From: Paludisphaera soli
GTDB taxonomy: Bacteria; Planctomycetota; Planctomycetia; Isosphaerales; Isosphaeraceae
Reading direction: 5' to 3'
Assembly (NCBI RefSeq): GCF_011064595.1
Contig: NZ_JAALJI010000012.1
Location: 62,001-126,000 of the forward strand
DNA length: 64,000 nucleotides
The notes under the pieces are model-generated. The model saw only the letters and a list, made by a program, of their open reading frames with translations, made no database searches and had not been told where the DNA came from. Below, in pieces: positions 21,563 to 42,916 of this stretch (positions are counted from its first letter, which is position 1; the number at the start of each line of letters is the position of its first letter). A program made the position numbers and the translations under genes.

Positions 21563-21736
21563 CCTTCCCCCCTGGCGGGGGAAGGTGGCCCGTCAGGGCC
21601 GGATGAGGGGGAAGACGAGCACGGAAGCCGTCGGAGAAATCGGCGGCTGTGAACGCCGTCGCCCCCTCGTGTCGTCCACCTTGATGGTCCCCCTCATCCG
21701 GCCCTTCGGGCCACCTTCCCCCACCGAGGGGGAAGG
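21563..21736. repeat. Palindromic repeat, copy A
   Basis: About 174 bases with terminal arms (21563-21611 and 21689-21736) that are near-complementary to each other. Each arm holds its own small hairpins: a C6/G5 hairpin (CCTTCCCCC...GGGGGAAGG) and a GGCC...GGCC hairpin next to CCGGATGAGGGGG. The roughly 77-base centre is not conserved among copies. This copy lies between the convergent DUF1624 and sigma factor genes, where it could act as a two-way terminator. Related copies are at 34447 and 41491. Confidence 0.85.
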
Positions 21737-34446: not shown

Positions 34447-34641
34447 CTTCCCCCCTCGCGGGGGAAGACAGACCGCGCAGCGGTCAGATGAGGGGGTGAC
34501 GCGCGCGGGGCGATTGGCCTTTCACCGCCCCGTCCGCATGGCCGTCGGTCTCGGGAAGACTTGACGGACCTCCGACGGCCTTGTCGCTCGTCCCCCCCTC
34601 ATCCGGCCCTTCGGGCCAGCTTCCCCTGCCAGGGGGGAAGG
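34447..34641. repeat. Palindromic repeat, copy B
   Basis: About 195 bases with the same arm design as the copies at 21563 and 41491. The left arm 34447-34496 contains a CTTCCCCCC...GGGGGAAG hairpin and ends AGATGAGGGGG; the right arm 34594-34641 runs CCCCCTCATCCGGCCC...GGGCC...GGGGGGAAGG. The left arm's inner hairpin differs from copies A and C, and the centre is unrelated. It lies between the convergent DUF4832-like and argC genes. Confidence 0.85.
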
Positions 34642-35780: not shown

Positions 35781-38270
35781 TCAACCCATCGCGGTCAAGG
35801 CCCTTCGACGCTCCCGCCGCGACGCTTCCAGTATCGCCGCGCACCAGGCCGCCCAGCAAGCTGCCGAGAACCAGAGCCCCTGCCGCACGACGGCCGCGTC
35901 GTACGTCAGCCGCAACACCGCCCCCTTCGCCGGCCGCGAATCGACCGCGACCCGCATCCAGGCCCCGCCCCCCTTCCCGACCCGGAACGCCGGCCGGATG
36001 TTCGCGGGCGTCTCCGCCCCCCCCTCCTCGACGACCGTCGCCCGCCACTGCGGGTCGAACAGGACGGAGACGAGCACGATGCCGGGGTGGACCGTTTCAT
36101 CCAGCGGGATCTCCCAGCCGATCGGCGACCGTGCGACCGCGTGCAGCGGCCGGGCGGCGGCGAGGAGGTCGAGCACCGGTCGGGGGTCGCCGTTCGACTC
36201 CTCCGGCACGTCCCCGGCCGCCAGCCAAGCGCGCGGGGCGTCGCCGGGCGGCCGGACGATCCGGAACGCGTCGGCCGCCGGACGTCGATCCGGGTTCCAG
36301 TCCGGCCCGAGCAGCCACCGCGCGAGGTTCGGGTCGGCGATCGTCTCGACCTCGCCCGGCGGCCGGGAGCCGGCTTCGAGCGGGTCGAGCACGCGCAGGC
36401 CGGCGCCGGTCGCGCGCATCGCCCTCAACGCCGTCTCCCCGCCGGGGCCGTCCAGGGGCGTTCGCGCCAGCGCGCCGAGCGCCGTCAGGGCCGGGAGGTC
36501 GAGCGTGCGGTACGCCTGCACCGGGGCCAGCCCGGCGGCCATCGCCAGGTTGCGCAGCGGGTCGATCGTGCGCGTCCCGCGCGGCTCCTGCGCCAGCCTG
36601 GCCAGCACCGGGCTCTGCTCGGCCAGCGGCCGGAGCGGGCCGACGTCGACCAGCCGGTGACGCCCCAGGAGCATCAGGTCGGCCCCGGTCAGAGCGACGA
36701 GCGCCGCAGGGACGATCGGCCGCAGGCGAGGGATCGTCGCCAGCCCCGCAAGCAAGGCCACGGCGGACAGGATCGCCAGCGCCTCGCCCAGTTCGACGGC
36801 GTAGATCGCGAACCGATTCGCTTCGAAGGAGCCGAGGCCGGCGACCGGCCGCCGCGCCAGGTTCACGACGCTCCGGAAGTCCGGGTCCCCCTGCCACGGC
36901 CGGGCCCGGAACGCGGCCTCGAAAAGTTCGGCCGCGCCCCGGCTCCCCGAGGGGGACGTCGACCAGAGGGCCAGTTCGAGCAGCCCCACGACCGCCGCGA
37001 TCCAGAGCAGGGCGGCCGCCGCGAGGATCAGGAGCCCCCGCGCCGGCCGCTCCCAGGCTCGCCAACGGTCGACGCCCAGGCCCGCCAGGAGCGCCAGCGC
37101 CAGGGTCATCGGCAGTCCCCAACGCGCGGGGGCCCGGAAGAAGGAGAAGCCCGGCAGCTCGATCAGCGCCCGGAAGCCCGGGACGTACGGCCCCAGGCTG
37201 AGGATCAGCGAAACAGCCCCCAGCACCGACAGGCAACGCACCGCCGGGTCGCGTCGGCCTTCGCGGAAGATCGCCAGCAAGGCCAGGAACAGCGGGACGG
37301 TCCCGACGTAAGCCAGGTATTCCTCGGGCGAGGTATGGAACGGATCCCACACCAGCGGCCGCCAGAGCGGCGATCGGTGGAACAGGTTCGGCGCGACCAG
37401 GCTGACGAGGTGGAGCGGCGTCGCGGCGAACCCCGACAGGTACTCGAAGTCGCGGCGATCGGCGGCCATCCCGGCCAGCCTCGCCGTGGGCCAGACCTGA
37501 ATCGCCGCCAGCGGCAGCACCACCGCCAGCCCCAGCACGAGAAGGCCCGGCCGACGGAAACCCGCGACCGAACGCCTGCGAACCAGGGCCTCCAGAGCCA
37601 TCCAGCCGGCCAGGACCGCGATGGTCCCCTGCGTCATGAAGGCGATCTGGAAATGGCCCGGGAGCACCTGGATCGCCAGGACCAGCGTCAGCAGGAACAG
37701 CCGCCTGGCCGTCCCGGGACCTTCGTGGTTCGCGAGCGACCATGCGAGGCCCCAGGCCCAGGGGAGCCAGGCCCCCGTCGTGTAACCCCAGGGGTGGGGC
37801 ATGTGGATCACGAAAAAACCGGAAGCGGCGTACGCAAATCCCGCGAGCGCCGCCCCCATGCGCCCCGCGCCGAACGTCCGGGAGCACCAGTAAGCCCCCA
37901 ACCCGGCCCACGTCGTATGCAGCACGAGGCTCGCGACGTAGGCCCGCTCGACGCTCAACAGCCCATAAAGGAGGAGATGGGGGGGATAGAACGCGCCCAT
38001 CTGGCTCTCGCCCACGCCGGGAAAGCCGTATCCCCAGAGATCGTTCCAGACGGGGAGGCGACGGGCGGCGATCGATTCGGCCAGGAAGCTCATCAAACCC
38101 AGGAAGAACTGGGTGACGTCGCCCCCGATGGGCATCGCGGTTCCCAAACTGAACGGCAGGAGCCAGACGAGAAGCGCCAGGACCACGCCAAGGGCCGCGA
38201 GACCCCCGACCAGGGGCCCGACGCCTCGCGGGGGCGCATCCGCCTTCCCCGATCGGATCGTCTCGTCCAC
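35781..38270 (-). CDS. YfhO-family multi-span membrane protein
   Basis: The 829-residue protein has about a dozen hydrophobic segments (about 20-520) and a large periplasmic C-terminal domain, ending in a last span and a basic tail. Early [21 protein letters not shown], then [19 protein letters not shown], is the diagnostic YfhO region, akin to GT-C glycosyltransferases. Bacillus YfhO glycosylates wall polymers; the substrate here is unknown. GTG 38270 is chosen; another GTG at 38345 is possible. It is the first gene of the unit with argC. csrA is divergent. Confidence 0.8.
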
Positions 38271-39998: not shown

Positions 39999-40944
39999 AC
40001 ATCCCGTCATCGGCGAATTCGGCCTCATCGACTGGATCCGTCGCCGGAACTCGGCCGCCGGCGCGACGCTCGGCATCGGCGACGACTGCGCGATGGTCGA
40101 CTTCGAAGGCGCGCCGGCCCTCGTGACGGTCGACATGCTGATGGACGGCCGCCACTTCCGACTGGCGGAGGACGGCCCCGAGGCGGTTGGCGCGAAGGCG
40201 ATGGGGGTCAACCTCTCCGACGTCGCGGCGATGGCCGGCGTCCCCCGGTTCGCGGTCGTCGCGGTCGCCCTGCCCCGGGACTCGGCGGTCGACGTGGCGA
40301 AGGGCCTGCACGAAGGGATCCGCCGGATGACCGACCGCTTCGGCGTGCAGCTGATCGGCGGCGACACCAACGCCTGGGACGGGCCTCTCGTCGTCACCGT
40401 CACCCTCCTGGGGGCCGCGACCTCCCGCGGCGTCGCGAAACGTTCCGACGCCCGGGTCGGCGACGCGATCTTCGTCACCGGGCCGCTCGGCGGCAGCCTC
40501 TTCCGGGGCCGGCACCTGCGGCCGGAGCCCCGGGTGGCGGAGGCCCTCGCCCTATCGGCCGCGACGGACCTGCACGCGATGATCGACCTCTCGGACGGAC
40601 TCTCGTCCGACCTGGGCCACATCCTGGAGGAGAGCGGCGGCCTGGGCGCGGCGCTCGACGCCGAGGCCGTGCCGATCCACGACGACGCGATCGACCACTC
40701 CCGCGCCGACGGCGTCCCCGCGCTCGACCACGCCCTGAACGACGGCGAGGACTTCGAGCTTTGCTTCACCGTCCCCGCCGACGCGGCCGACGCCCTGGCG
40801 GCGCGCCCTCCCGACGGGGTCTGGCTCCGCCGCATCGGCGCGATCGTCGCCGAGCCCGGCCTCCGGCTCCGAGGGGCCGACGGCCGCACGTGGGCGATCG
40901 AGGGCCGGGGGTTCGACCACATGAAAGGCCCGTCTCCGCGATGA
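39991..40944 (+). CDS. thiL: Thiamine-monophosphate kinase ThiL
   Basis: ThiL phosphorylates thiamine monophosphate to the active diphosphate. The 317-residue protein has FGLIDWIRR at its start, GIGDDCAMV (about 25-33), KAMGVNLSDVAAMAG with Mg ligands, LIGGDTNAWDG and MIDLSDGLSSDLGHI, all ThiL/PurM superfamily marks. The ATG at 39991 overlaps the kinase gene and has GAGGAG upstream. Its stop overlaps the ATG of tsaE (ATGA). Confidence 0.94.
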   Translation: MSEHPVIGEFGLIDWIRRRNSAAGATLGIGDDCAMVDFEGAPALVTVDMLMDGRHFRLAEDGPEAVGAKAMGVNLSDVAAMAGVPRFAVVAVALPRDSAVDVAKGLHEGIRRMTDRFGVQLIGGDTNAWDGPLVVTVTLLGAATSRGVAKRSDARVGDAIFVTGPLGGSLFRGRHLRPEPRVAEALALSAATDLHAMIDLSDGLSSDLGHILEESGGLGAALDAEAVPIHDDAIDHSRADGVPALDHALNDGEDFELCFTVPADAADALAARPPDGVWLRRIGAIVAEPGLRLRGADGRTWAIEGRGFDHMKGPSPR

Positions 40945-41435
40945 ACGTGCAGCCGCTCGAAGACGCCCTCCAGGTCGAGGTCGCGGGCGAGGCCGAGACC
41001 GAGGCCCTCGGCCGCGCGATCGCGACGTTGCTCGCCCCCGACGTCGTCGTCGGCCTGGTCGGGCCGCTCGGCGCGGGCAAGACGCGGCTCTCCCGCGCGA
41101 TCGCCGAGGCCCTCGGCGTCGACCCGACCGCCATCGCCAGCCCGACCTTCGTGCTCATCCATGAATATGAAGGCGTGATCCCGGTCTACCATTTCGACGT
41201 CTACCGCCTCCCCTCGCCCGCGGCGTTCGAAGACCTGGGCGCGGCCGATTACTGGGCCGCAGGCGGCGTCTGCCTCGTCGAGTGGGCCGACCGCGTCCCC
41301 GACTCGCTCCCCCCCGACGCCTGGTGGATCACGATGGCACCCGTCGACGAGTCCCGGCGGACGATCCGCATCGCCGCCCCCGCCGACGTCCGAAACCGGC
41401 TCGCCGAGGCCCTCGCACCGAAGGAAGCACCATGA
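40941..41435 (+). CDS. tsaE: tRNA threonylcarbamoyladenosine biosynthesis ATPase TsaE
   Basis: TsaE is the ATPase that resets the TsaB-TsaD complex in t6A synthesis at tRNA position 37. The 164-residue protein has a Walker A motif, GPLGAGKTRL, and then SPTFVLIHEYEG, VYHFDVYRL and the Walker-B-like LVEWADRV, as usual for the family. ATG at 40941 forms an ATGA overlap with thiL. Its own stop overlaps an ATG of the next gene (ATGA at 41432). A TsaC-type fusion gene is elsewhere in the window at 51.3-52.5 kb. Confidence 0.94.
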   Translation: MNVQPLEDALQVEVAGEAETEALGRAIATLLAPDVVVGLVGPLGAGKTRLSRAIAEALGVDPTAIASPTFVLIHEYEGVIPVYHFDVYRLPSPAAFEDLGAADYWAAGGVCLVEWADRVPDSLPPDAWWITMAPVDESRRTIRIAAPADVRNRLAEALAPKEAP

Positions 41436-42916
41436 CGCCGAACTGCCCGTCGCGTACTCGAAGATCACTCTTTCATCGCGTCGCTGAATTCCTTCCCCCC
41501 CGGCGGGGGAAGGTGGCAGAAGGCCGGATGAGGGGGGGACGCACGCAGGGAGTCTCGAACTTCGAAGCCCCACCCGCGCGGCCGAGGCGCGGGAAAGACC
41601 TCCTCGAAACCCGGCGGCCTTCTCGCTCGTCCCCCCCTCATCCGGCCCTTCGAGCCACCTTCCCCCGCCAGGGGGGAAGGGCTTTGTGGTCCATGTTCCT
41701 CGCGGCCCTCGCCATGACGGCCCACGCCGAGGACGGCACCCCAGCCGAAGAAGCCAAGCCCAGCCTCGTGGGCGCCTACGGGCCCTGGCTGTCCGACAAG
41801 GTCCTGGGCGACGGCCCTGCGAAGCTCTCGTTCCGCACGGGCCGGTGGAAGTCGCTCGACGAGTGGCGAAAGGTCGGCCGCGAGCGGGTCTGGGAGTGCC
41901 TCGCGCCGGTCGACCAGGGGGGCGTCCCAGAGGTCCGCGTCGAGGAGACGCGCGAGTTCGACGGCCTGCACATCGAGCGGCTCTCGTGGCAGCTCCCCGG
42001 CGGGCCGCGCACGGAGTCCGTCTTCCTGAAGCCGGCCGGGGCGACGGGCAAGCTCCCCGCCGTGCTCGCGCTCCACGACCACGGCGGCAACAAGTTCCTG
42101 GGCTGGCGGAAGATCGCCCGGATCGGCGACGAGCCCTGGCCGATCGTCGTCGACCATCAGGACCACTATTACGGCGGGGTCGCCTGGGCGAACGAGCTGG
42201 CGAAGCGCGGCTACGCGGTCCTCGTCCACGACACCTTCCCGTTCGCCAGCCGCCGCGTCCGCGCGGCCGACGTCCCCCAGCGGATCCGCGAGGGGGGCGT
42301 CGATCCCGAGCCGACCGACGCCGAGGGCGTGGCCCGCTACAACAAGTTCGCCGGCGCCCATGAAGACGTGATGGAGAAAGGCCTGATCAGCGCGGGGACG
42401 ACCTGGCCGGGCGTCTACGTCGTCGAGGACCAGCGGGCGCTGGACGTACTTTGCGCCCGGCCCGAAGTCGACCCGGACCGCGTCGGCTGCGCGGGGCTCT
42501 CCGGCGGCGGCATGCGGACCGTCTACCTCGGCGGGCTGGACGACCGCGTGAAGTGCGCCGTGGCGGTTGGCTTCATGACCACCTGGCGGGACTTCCTGCT
42601 CAACAAGTCGTATACCCACACCTGGATGGCCTACGCCCCGCTCCTTCCGCGCGACCTGGACTTCCCCGAGATCCTCGCCCTCCGCGCGCCCCTGCCGACG
42701 ATGGTCCTCAACAGCAGCGAGGACCAGCTTTACACGCTCCCGGAGATGCAACGAGCCGACGCGATCCTCCGCGAAACCTTCGCCAAGGGGGGCGCCCCCG
42801 AAGCCTACGACTGCCGCTACTACCCCGGCGGCCACCGCTTCGACCTCGACATGCAGCGCGACGCCTTCGCCTGGTTCGACCGCCACCTCGCGGCCTCACG
42901 CGATCCTCGCCCTTGA
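41432..42916 (+). CDS. Secreted alpha/beta hydrolase (acetylxylan esterase/dienelactone hydrolase type) with a repeat in its signal peptide
   Basis: The mature part is an alpha/beta hydrolase with the nucleophile elbow GLSGGG, an acid in VLNSSEDQLYT and a histidine in GGHRFD near the C-terminus. Family members deacetylate polysaccharides or sugars. ATG 41432 overlaps tsaE's stop and starts an Arg-rich n-region, RTRRSLFHRVA. Palindromic repeat copy C (41491-41680) then intervenes in-frame, and after it come the hydrophobic core and cleavage site, LWSMFLAALAMTAHA-ED. Alternative starts after the repeat are TTG 41684 and ATG 41693 (407-residue product); GGGGGGAAGG at the repeat's end could act as their ribosome-binding site. 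Export may be weakened if the h-region is far from the n-region. Confidence 0.7.
   Translation: MTPNCPSRTRRSLFHRVAEFLPPRRGKVAEGRMRGGRTQGVSNFEAPPARPRRGKDLLETRRPSRSSPPHPALRATFPRQGGRALWSMFLAALAMTAHAEDGTPAEEAKPSLVGAYGPWLSDKVLGDGPAKLSFRTGRWKSLDEWRKVGRERVWECLAPVDQGGVPEVRVEETREFDGLHIERLSWQLPGGPRTESVFLKPAGATGKLPAVLALHDHGGNKFLGWRKIARIGDEPWPIVVDHQDHYYGGVAWANELAKRGYAVLVHDTFPFASRRVRAADVPQRIREGGVDPEPTDAEGVARYNKFAGAHEDVMEKGLISAGTTWPGVYVVEDQRALDVLCARPEVDPDRVGCAGLSGGGMRTVYLGGLDDRVKCAVAVGFMTTWRDFLLNKSYTHTWMAYAPLLPRDLDFPEILALRAPLPTMVLNSSEDQLYTLPEMQRADAILRETFAKGGAPEAYDCRYYPGGHRFDLDMQRDAFAWFDRHLAASRDPRP
41491..41680. repeat. Palindromic repeat, copy C, inside a coding frame
   Basis: About 190 bases, same arms as copies A and B: left CCTTCCCCCC...GGGGGAAGGTGGC then CCGGATGAGGGGG; right CCCCCTCATCCGGCCC, GAGCCACC, and CCCCCGCCAGGGGGGAAGG. 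Unlike A and B it lies between two co-oriented genes and within the N-terminal coding frame of the alpha/beta hydrolase, which stays open through the element. Confidence 0.85.

Follow-up and report, generated by a model that had tools for sequence, protein, structure and literature searches.

The window analyzed here is a stretch of 64,000 nucleotides, positions 62001-126000 of contig C24 in the source genome (G000). It contains a tsaE gene (40941-41435, plus strand; Pfam TsaE PF02367, E 4e-35) whose TGA stop codon overlaps the ATG of a hydrolase gene at 41432 in a shared ATGA; the sequence thus bears out the overlap described in an earlier note on this DNA. The hydrolase ATG is still preceded by the ribosome-binding-like sequence GAAGGAAGCACC, for which an anti-SD duplex of −6.2 kcal/mol was calculated, and it opens a frame of 494 residues that continues up to 42916. 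Positions 41432-41485 (plus strand) encode the start codon and the original basic n-region of a signal peptide, MTPNCPSRTRRSLFHRVA, as judged from the translation and from the ATG at the equivalent overlap in genome G001. At 54 nt inside this frame begins a palindromic element, copy C, which was delimited to approximately 41486-41685 (plus strand) using its inverted repeat, BLAST matches, and decayed terminal repeats. Its left arm (41491-41517) and right arm (41654-41680) are 96% complementary. The right arm is read as TFPRQGGR, placing basic residues near the hydrophobic core. The core and presumed cleavage site, MFLAALAMTAHA followed by ED, were assigned to 41693-41728 (plus strand) by eye from the translation and by comparison with G001. 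The mature alpha/beta hydrolase (Peptidase_S9/AXE1-like by family match) and its stop codon occupy 41729-42916 (plus strand). The core and the AHA site are intact, and the gene contains neither a stop nor a frameshift. Copy C therefore separates, in frame, the basic beginning of the signal peptide from the hydrophobic core, as the earlier note had claimed, although the observation proved larger than that note had it. Two other copies in the window, B (34447-34641, corresponding to C24:96447-96641, plus strand; found using BLAST) and A (21565-21734, plus strand; limits of the outer hairpin), gave no in-gene signal in the survey described below.

Copy C is one of many related elements. Its RNA folding exceeded that of shuffled sequences (z = −8.3; 0 of 100 shuffles equaled it), and BLAST returned 119 matches in its own genome, a figure in which palindromes match both strands and for which 40 of 239 first-look candidates were scored. 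A 25-base arm pattern allowing up to three mismatches matched the same genome 64 times versus 0 for the reversed control. Based on 106 elements, the family has terminal inverted repeats with the loose consensus AACGGC-CTTCCC...GGGAAG-GCCGTT, the outer six positions of which are conserved at 42-76%; the ends of copy C are decayed versions of both, from which its span was derived. Target duplications of at least 6 bases were not above control, the longest shared flank word averaging 4.15 versus 4.21 bases. The transposase search covered PF01797 only, and none of the 14 PF01797 loci and their flanks in five of the six genomes contained the element, giving no link to a RAYT. The arms contain CGTC, which may represent a GTAG/CGTC tag at one end of the hairpin, the limits of the unit being blurred. 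Rfam searches of six sources yielded three matches, all far under the gathering score. Overall, these data describe a non-autonomous palindromic repeat of approximately 150-200 bp with hairpin ends and at least dozens of copies per genome, and this repeat belongs to a family of the genus, probably Paludisphaera. The mobile-like character and in-frame insertion proposed earlier were supported.

Several copies in G000 share a left flank like GGGGACCATCAAGGCGGACG (L065, L080, L082, L087, and L097), and a stretch resembling this type of flank forms the spacer of other copies (L069 and L150). From this sharing, some copies seem to be nested or in tandem. Arm pieces of approximately 47-56 bases also matched 33 Rhizobiales/Azospirillum plasmid records at 80-95% identity, mainly from Shinella (14) and Rhizobium (11). 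Among the best 20 of these 33, query coverage was 24-27% and the full element was not found, the same-genus SH-PL62 plasmid (NZ_CP011274.1) aside in both respects. In the Shinella plasmid pcSHIWSC3, the arm match (L280:1501-1549) lies inside an annotated dihydrolipoamide acetyltransferase gene; based on this match, related repeats may be coding in Rhizobiales too.

The coding capacity of the element was evaluated using 29 copies. The mean number of open frames was 2.97 of six, as compared to 3.66 of six in shuffles. Being below the shuffle expectation, an open frame through the element is ordinary, and openness was rejected as a sign of coding design. It is the in-frame position inside a gene, and not the open frame, that needs explanation. 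In its three frames, the right-hand hairpin reads mostly as PSPARGE, LPPPGGK, or FPREGGR/FPRQGGR. Indeed, 202, 209, and 216 of 217 terminal hairpins had a lysine or arginine in the last four residues in frames 0, 1, and 2, respectively.

To place copy C in context, elements were surveyed in five genomes. The G000 sample comprised 80 loci: 39 from the similarity list, window copy A, and 40 from the arm-pattern matches, part of that list. Samples from G001, G002, G004, and G005 comprised 20 loci each, taken among the matches listed. Together, they yielded 170 element clusters including the window copy (G000, 84; G001, 22; G002, 20; G004, 20; G005, 24). The copies were picked by similarity and not randomly, signal peptides were judged by eye and hydropathy, and signal-peptide cases were accepted by hand. 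The G000 counts vary with the cluster settings, from 48 genes and 18 open frames to 47 and 15. Overall, 84 genes read away from an element and 30 frames were open through one. In 11 of these 30, a hydrophobic segment followed soon after the element with no ATG clearly before the segment. Eight of the 170 clusters, representing seven genes, were accepted as in-frame signal-peptide insertions: in G000, the window hydrolase, a BatD-like gene (L093), a VWA gene (L150), and a periplasmic-binding lipoprotein gene (L142); in G001, a DUF3352-like gene (L177; family match below the cut-off) and a sulfatase gene (L182); and in G005, a second hydrolase gene (L239) and a VWA gene (L246). The window case passes the survey filter even though its ATG 41693 lies at the margin of the core. 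Two further signal-peptide insertions were found via orthologues, and start codons and charge were examined in ten N-terminal cases. Of the other three of the 11, L249 is an internal insertion described below, and two candidates were set aside: L190, a weak cluster of 51 nt with the core 19 residues off, and L076, with the core 25 residues off and an unclear start.

None of the 19 other open-through cases was clearly an insertion into the N-terminal part of a cytosolic protein. In 16 of these, an ATG occurred within 35 residues after the element; in L068 the ATG lay further than 35 residues away, while within that span L069 had only a TTG and L223 (minus strand) only a GTG. Using a crude detector, 18 of 54 genes starting after an element had a hydrophobic N-terminus. 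At this frequency, eight of eight would be hydrophobic by chance with a probability of approximately 1.5e-4, and seven of seven, omitting the window, with approximately 4.6e-4; these figures are a guide only, as the filter was biased toward hydrophobic N-termini and one gene accounts for two of the eight. Both flanks were coding in 4 of the 84 G000 clusters, all of which had stops inside the element and were not counted. Of six internal candidates, L240 was kept; the other five lacked a single frame that was both open and coding on the two sides of the element.

An empty site in a relative, the check proposed in the earlier note, was found in G001, a genome of the same genus that is 86% identical. 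There, the tsaE overlap is kept and leads directly into MTYRAPKLATPTVILMLGAFLTTAGAEDG, a normal signal peptide. The related expectation that removing the element would leave a textbook signal peptide holds in outline, G001 having one (MTYRAPKLATPTVILMLGAFLTTAGA followed by EDG), but not as an exact excision of 200 nt: subtracting exactly 200 from the 297 nt upstream of the cleavage point leaves 97, which is not a multiple of three. Thus, either the element ends differ slightly from those assigned or the junction was altered by 1-2 bases. In G003, the hydrolase gene is located away from tsaE and has its own signal peptide, MTRLVRSFCGVFLIGVLARTGVAED, with a related element just upstream of the ATG. 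In G028, G059, and Aquisphaera insulae, the orthologous proteins begin with plain signal peptides, and no close copy was found in G002, G004, or G005 at E 1e-100. The simplest reading of these sequences is an insertion in the G000 lineage after its split from G001, the hydrolase insertion being known from one genome, G000.

More distant relatives of the hydrolase mostly begin at or near M(E)PNMIGAYGPW and have no signal peptide. Many orthologues outside the genus and Aquisphaera lack one, so export was either gained in the genus/Aquisphaera branch or lost in the others. A cytosolic form of the enzyme is therefore plausible, and an n-region of 88 residues is unusual; the insertion could accordingly have ruined export, leaving an enzyme that is now cytosolic or a gene that is beginning to decay. 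We consider this unlikely, given that the core and AHA site are intact, that the frame is unbroken, that dN/dS is low, and that seven further insertions of like kind occur in six other genes. Specifically, dN/dS of the hydrolase against G001 was 0.17 at a dS of 0.46, as compared to a dN/dS of 0.35 for tsaE. By this comparison the hydrolase is under purifying selection, although the ratio spans the whole time since the split from G001 and is thus no proof of selection after the insertion.

Orthologue searches covered all of the seven genes but L142 and L182, and for each of the five searched, relatives without the element were found: the window hydrolase and the VWA, BatD-like, DUF3352-like, and second hydrolase genes. 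In the VWA gene, elements are in frame in G000, G004, and G005. Its n-region contains a single hairpin of 21-23 bases, noticed by eye, in both G001 and G003, and no element was found in G002 or in either outgroup, G028 or G059. By eye, the spacers of the three VWA elements differ, suggesting that they arose by independent insertion at a shared position and do not descend from a single old event. The BatD-like gene carries a full element in G000, a related element in G004 (a BLAST match of 38 bases only), a single hairpin in G002, and no element in G003, G005, G028, or G059. No element was reported for the DUF3352-like gene in any of the seven other genomes. The second hydrolase gene had no element in G002, G004, G028, or G059, and no match for the gene was found in G003; in G000, the element lies upstream and the gene has its own ATG. 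In G001, both the BatD-like and the second hydrolase genes have an element in an open frame with an ATG after it, and were left as ambiguous. Single hairpins of 21-23 bases resembling the end unit of the element were observed in the signal-peptide n-regions of orthologues from other species (L164, L167, and L170). Those of L164 and L167 were unreported by BLAST at E 0.01, while that of L170 gave a match of 24 bases (E 0.001). Such hairpins may be remnants or seeds of full elements, or may be due to chance.

Two elements lie in the interior of proteins. In G005 (L249, contig C2), an element separates hydrophobic stretches of a putative multi-spanning membrane protein that has no Pfam or NCBIfam match. 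Both flanks of the insert (query residues 1 to 139-145 and from 201-209 on) have matches in each of the seven other genomes searched, where at most approximately 13 residues replace the some 55-67 encoded in G005. The orthologue in the window (36840-38144) is without an element at the equivalent site. Also in G005 (L240:147-1760, contig C4), an in-frame element adds approximately 58 residues to protoporphyrinogen oxidase, a heme enzyme. Mapped onto the solved structure 3i6d, this insert falls between positions 270 and 277, and the solved relatives are without it. As internal loop insertions, neither can be explained by an error in the start site. These two cases weigh on whether the N-terminal cases are insertions into untranslated leaders next to misplaced gene starts. 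PMC3733652 cautions that, because of misannotated genes, most of the REPs assigned to NH2-terminal coding regions may in fact be extragenic, and the ATG within 35 residues after the element in 16 of 19 other open-through cases would fit. Beyond the two loops, however, the element separates the start from the core, and the VWA gene of G005 has no ATG, GTG, or TTG in or after the element before the core. Misplaced starts are thus a very improbable explanation.

The earlier note had proposed that the element might supply a translation start, as would be the case if it had cut the old start from the gene and translation now began at TTG 41684 or ATG 41693 with GGGGGGAAGG (41671-41680) as the ribosome-binding site. 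The calculated anti-SD duplexes of GGGGGGAAGG are stronger (−10.0 for TTG 41684 and, in two calculations, −8.9 and −7.1 for ATG 41693) than the −6.2 of ATG 41432. In addition, an element lies upstream of a clear own ATG in the G003 hydrolase and the G000 second hydrolase genes, and possibly likewise in the G001 BatD-like and second hydrolase genes. In the predicted RNA, however, GGGGGGAAGG is base-paired: when the whole element is folded, it pairs with the left arm (mean probability 1.00), and when shorter stretches are folded, it pairs inside a small hairpin of its own (0.90; 0.90-1.00 over the three stretches folded), so the strong duplex energies may not count in the cell. Moreover, starts at TTG 41684 and ATG 41693 would leave 15 and 12 residues, respectively, before the cleavage site, with no lysine or arginine, whereas the old start retains both its SD and the tsaE overlap. 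The G005 VWA gene points the same way: considering ATG, GTG, and TTG codons, none occurs between its upstream ATG, which has a strong SD (−11.9), and the hydrophobic core. In each of the nine remaining N-terminal cases, some such codon is present in or near the element, and the upstream start of the sulfatase gene (L182) has a weak SD (−2.4). In the hydrolase frame, the element also contains a GTG at residue 27 and an ATG at residue 32. A downstream or in-element start is possible for the window hydrolase but not favored, and displacement of the start to TTG 41684 or ATG 41693 is improbable. The alternative offered in the same note, that the element encodes a long linker, was supported.

The evidence in hand is the difference from G001, the in-frame continuity, the intact hydrolase, and the like arrangement in other genes and species. 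Based on these, we consider it likely that the repeat was inserted between the n-region and h-region of the hydrolase in the G000 lineage and that translation proceeds from ATG 41432 through the element. The repeat would have entered soon after the start codon and the frame would have stayed open; translation, most likely still coupled to tsaE, would yield a basic n-region of 88 residues ahead of the hydrophobic core. We infer from the sequence that the product is translated, exported, and cleaved. More generally, the repeats are probably translated and tolerated inside working proteins, as judged from these genomes. The opening bases are ATGA or GTGA in nine of the ten N-terminal cases, and in several the start seems to overlap the preceding stop codon or to lie almost against it, the tsaE overlap alone having been checked against a family model. 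The insertion sites thus look like packed operon junctions, where the n-region may be one of few stretches that tolerate extra residues. A signal-peptide n-region needs a basic residue, and the terminal hairpin of the element would encode one in all three frames; in the ten N-terminal cases, the last 20 residues before the core have a net charge of 0 to +5. Tolerance in the n-region together with the basic tail would explain the signal-peptide bias without special targeting, though targeting may also be involved. A bolder proposal is that the repeats act as portable n-regions, their basic, Gly/Pro-rich tail in every frame keeping or re-creating export after insertion at a start codon, and that selection may have shaped the arms. 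We regard this as speculative and rather unlikely; if true, it would let the repeats persist where operons are dense with genes, and signal peptides throughout the genus could be remodeled by them.

This planctomycete genus carries a repeat family entering genes in frame, mostly where secreted proteins easily bear extra residues, and its genomes provide natural comparisons of genes that have the insert with orthologues that do not. The bias toward signal peptides looks new. Among the matches listed from open-licence PMC papers, we found no earlier description of repeats of this kind from signal peptides, from Paludisphaera, or from Planctomycetes, nothing describing signal-peptide repeats in the literature on coding palindromes and mosaic elements, and, among the matches listed in a text search for the arm word CCTCATCCG, no relevant title. 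The best-known coding palindromes are those of Rickettsia and Wolbachia. Excerpts of a Paludisphaera genome paper (PMC5352709) showed no mention of repeats like those described here. The cases with element-free orthologues bear on a doubt printed in PMC3733652, namely whether N-terminal repeats are translated or reflect annotation errors.

The Rickettsia palindromic elements (RPE) and their Wolbachia counterparts are palindromic, mobile-like, and approximately 100-150 bp long, and occur between genes and repeatedly in frame in conserved genes (PMC3733652, PMC2229807, PMC10969869); in R. conorii, expression has been reported for proteins that carry RPE-1 at the N-terminus (PMC3733652). Judged by sequence, the Paludisphaera repeat is similarly a multi-copy palindrome found in frame in conserved genes whose relatives are without it. 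It differs in residing in a high-GC planctomycete, in that most of the in-gene cases found here lie in signal-peptide n-regions, and in having no one conserved peptide frame, reading as FLPPRRGKV, PSLLVGEG, and AFPPCGGRW in different genes. The working principle is the one seen in coding palindromes. The comparison covered arrangement and reading frame, and we do not claim RPE membership because a single conserved peptide frame is lacking. The GTAG/CGTC-tagged REPs, both super-families of which are also reported from Planctomycetes, likewise consist of hairpin units, often as inverted dimers, some of them inside ORFs (PMC3733652), but the Paludisphaera element is a composite of approximately 200 bp with a spacer, and none of the 14 PF01797 (RAYT) loci had a copy beside it. 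With MITEs it shares terminal inverted repeats, but it lacks target duplications of at least 6 bases above control; shorter ones of 2-5 bp may be present. ERIC, YPAL/RU-2, NEMIS, and other bacterial MITEs form in-frame fusions with ORFs, and in one YPAL case, YPO1552, the predicted signal peptide is partly formed by the element (PMC2229807). There, the element helps form a putative new exported protein, whereas the Paludisphaera element splits the existing signal peptide of conserved genes.
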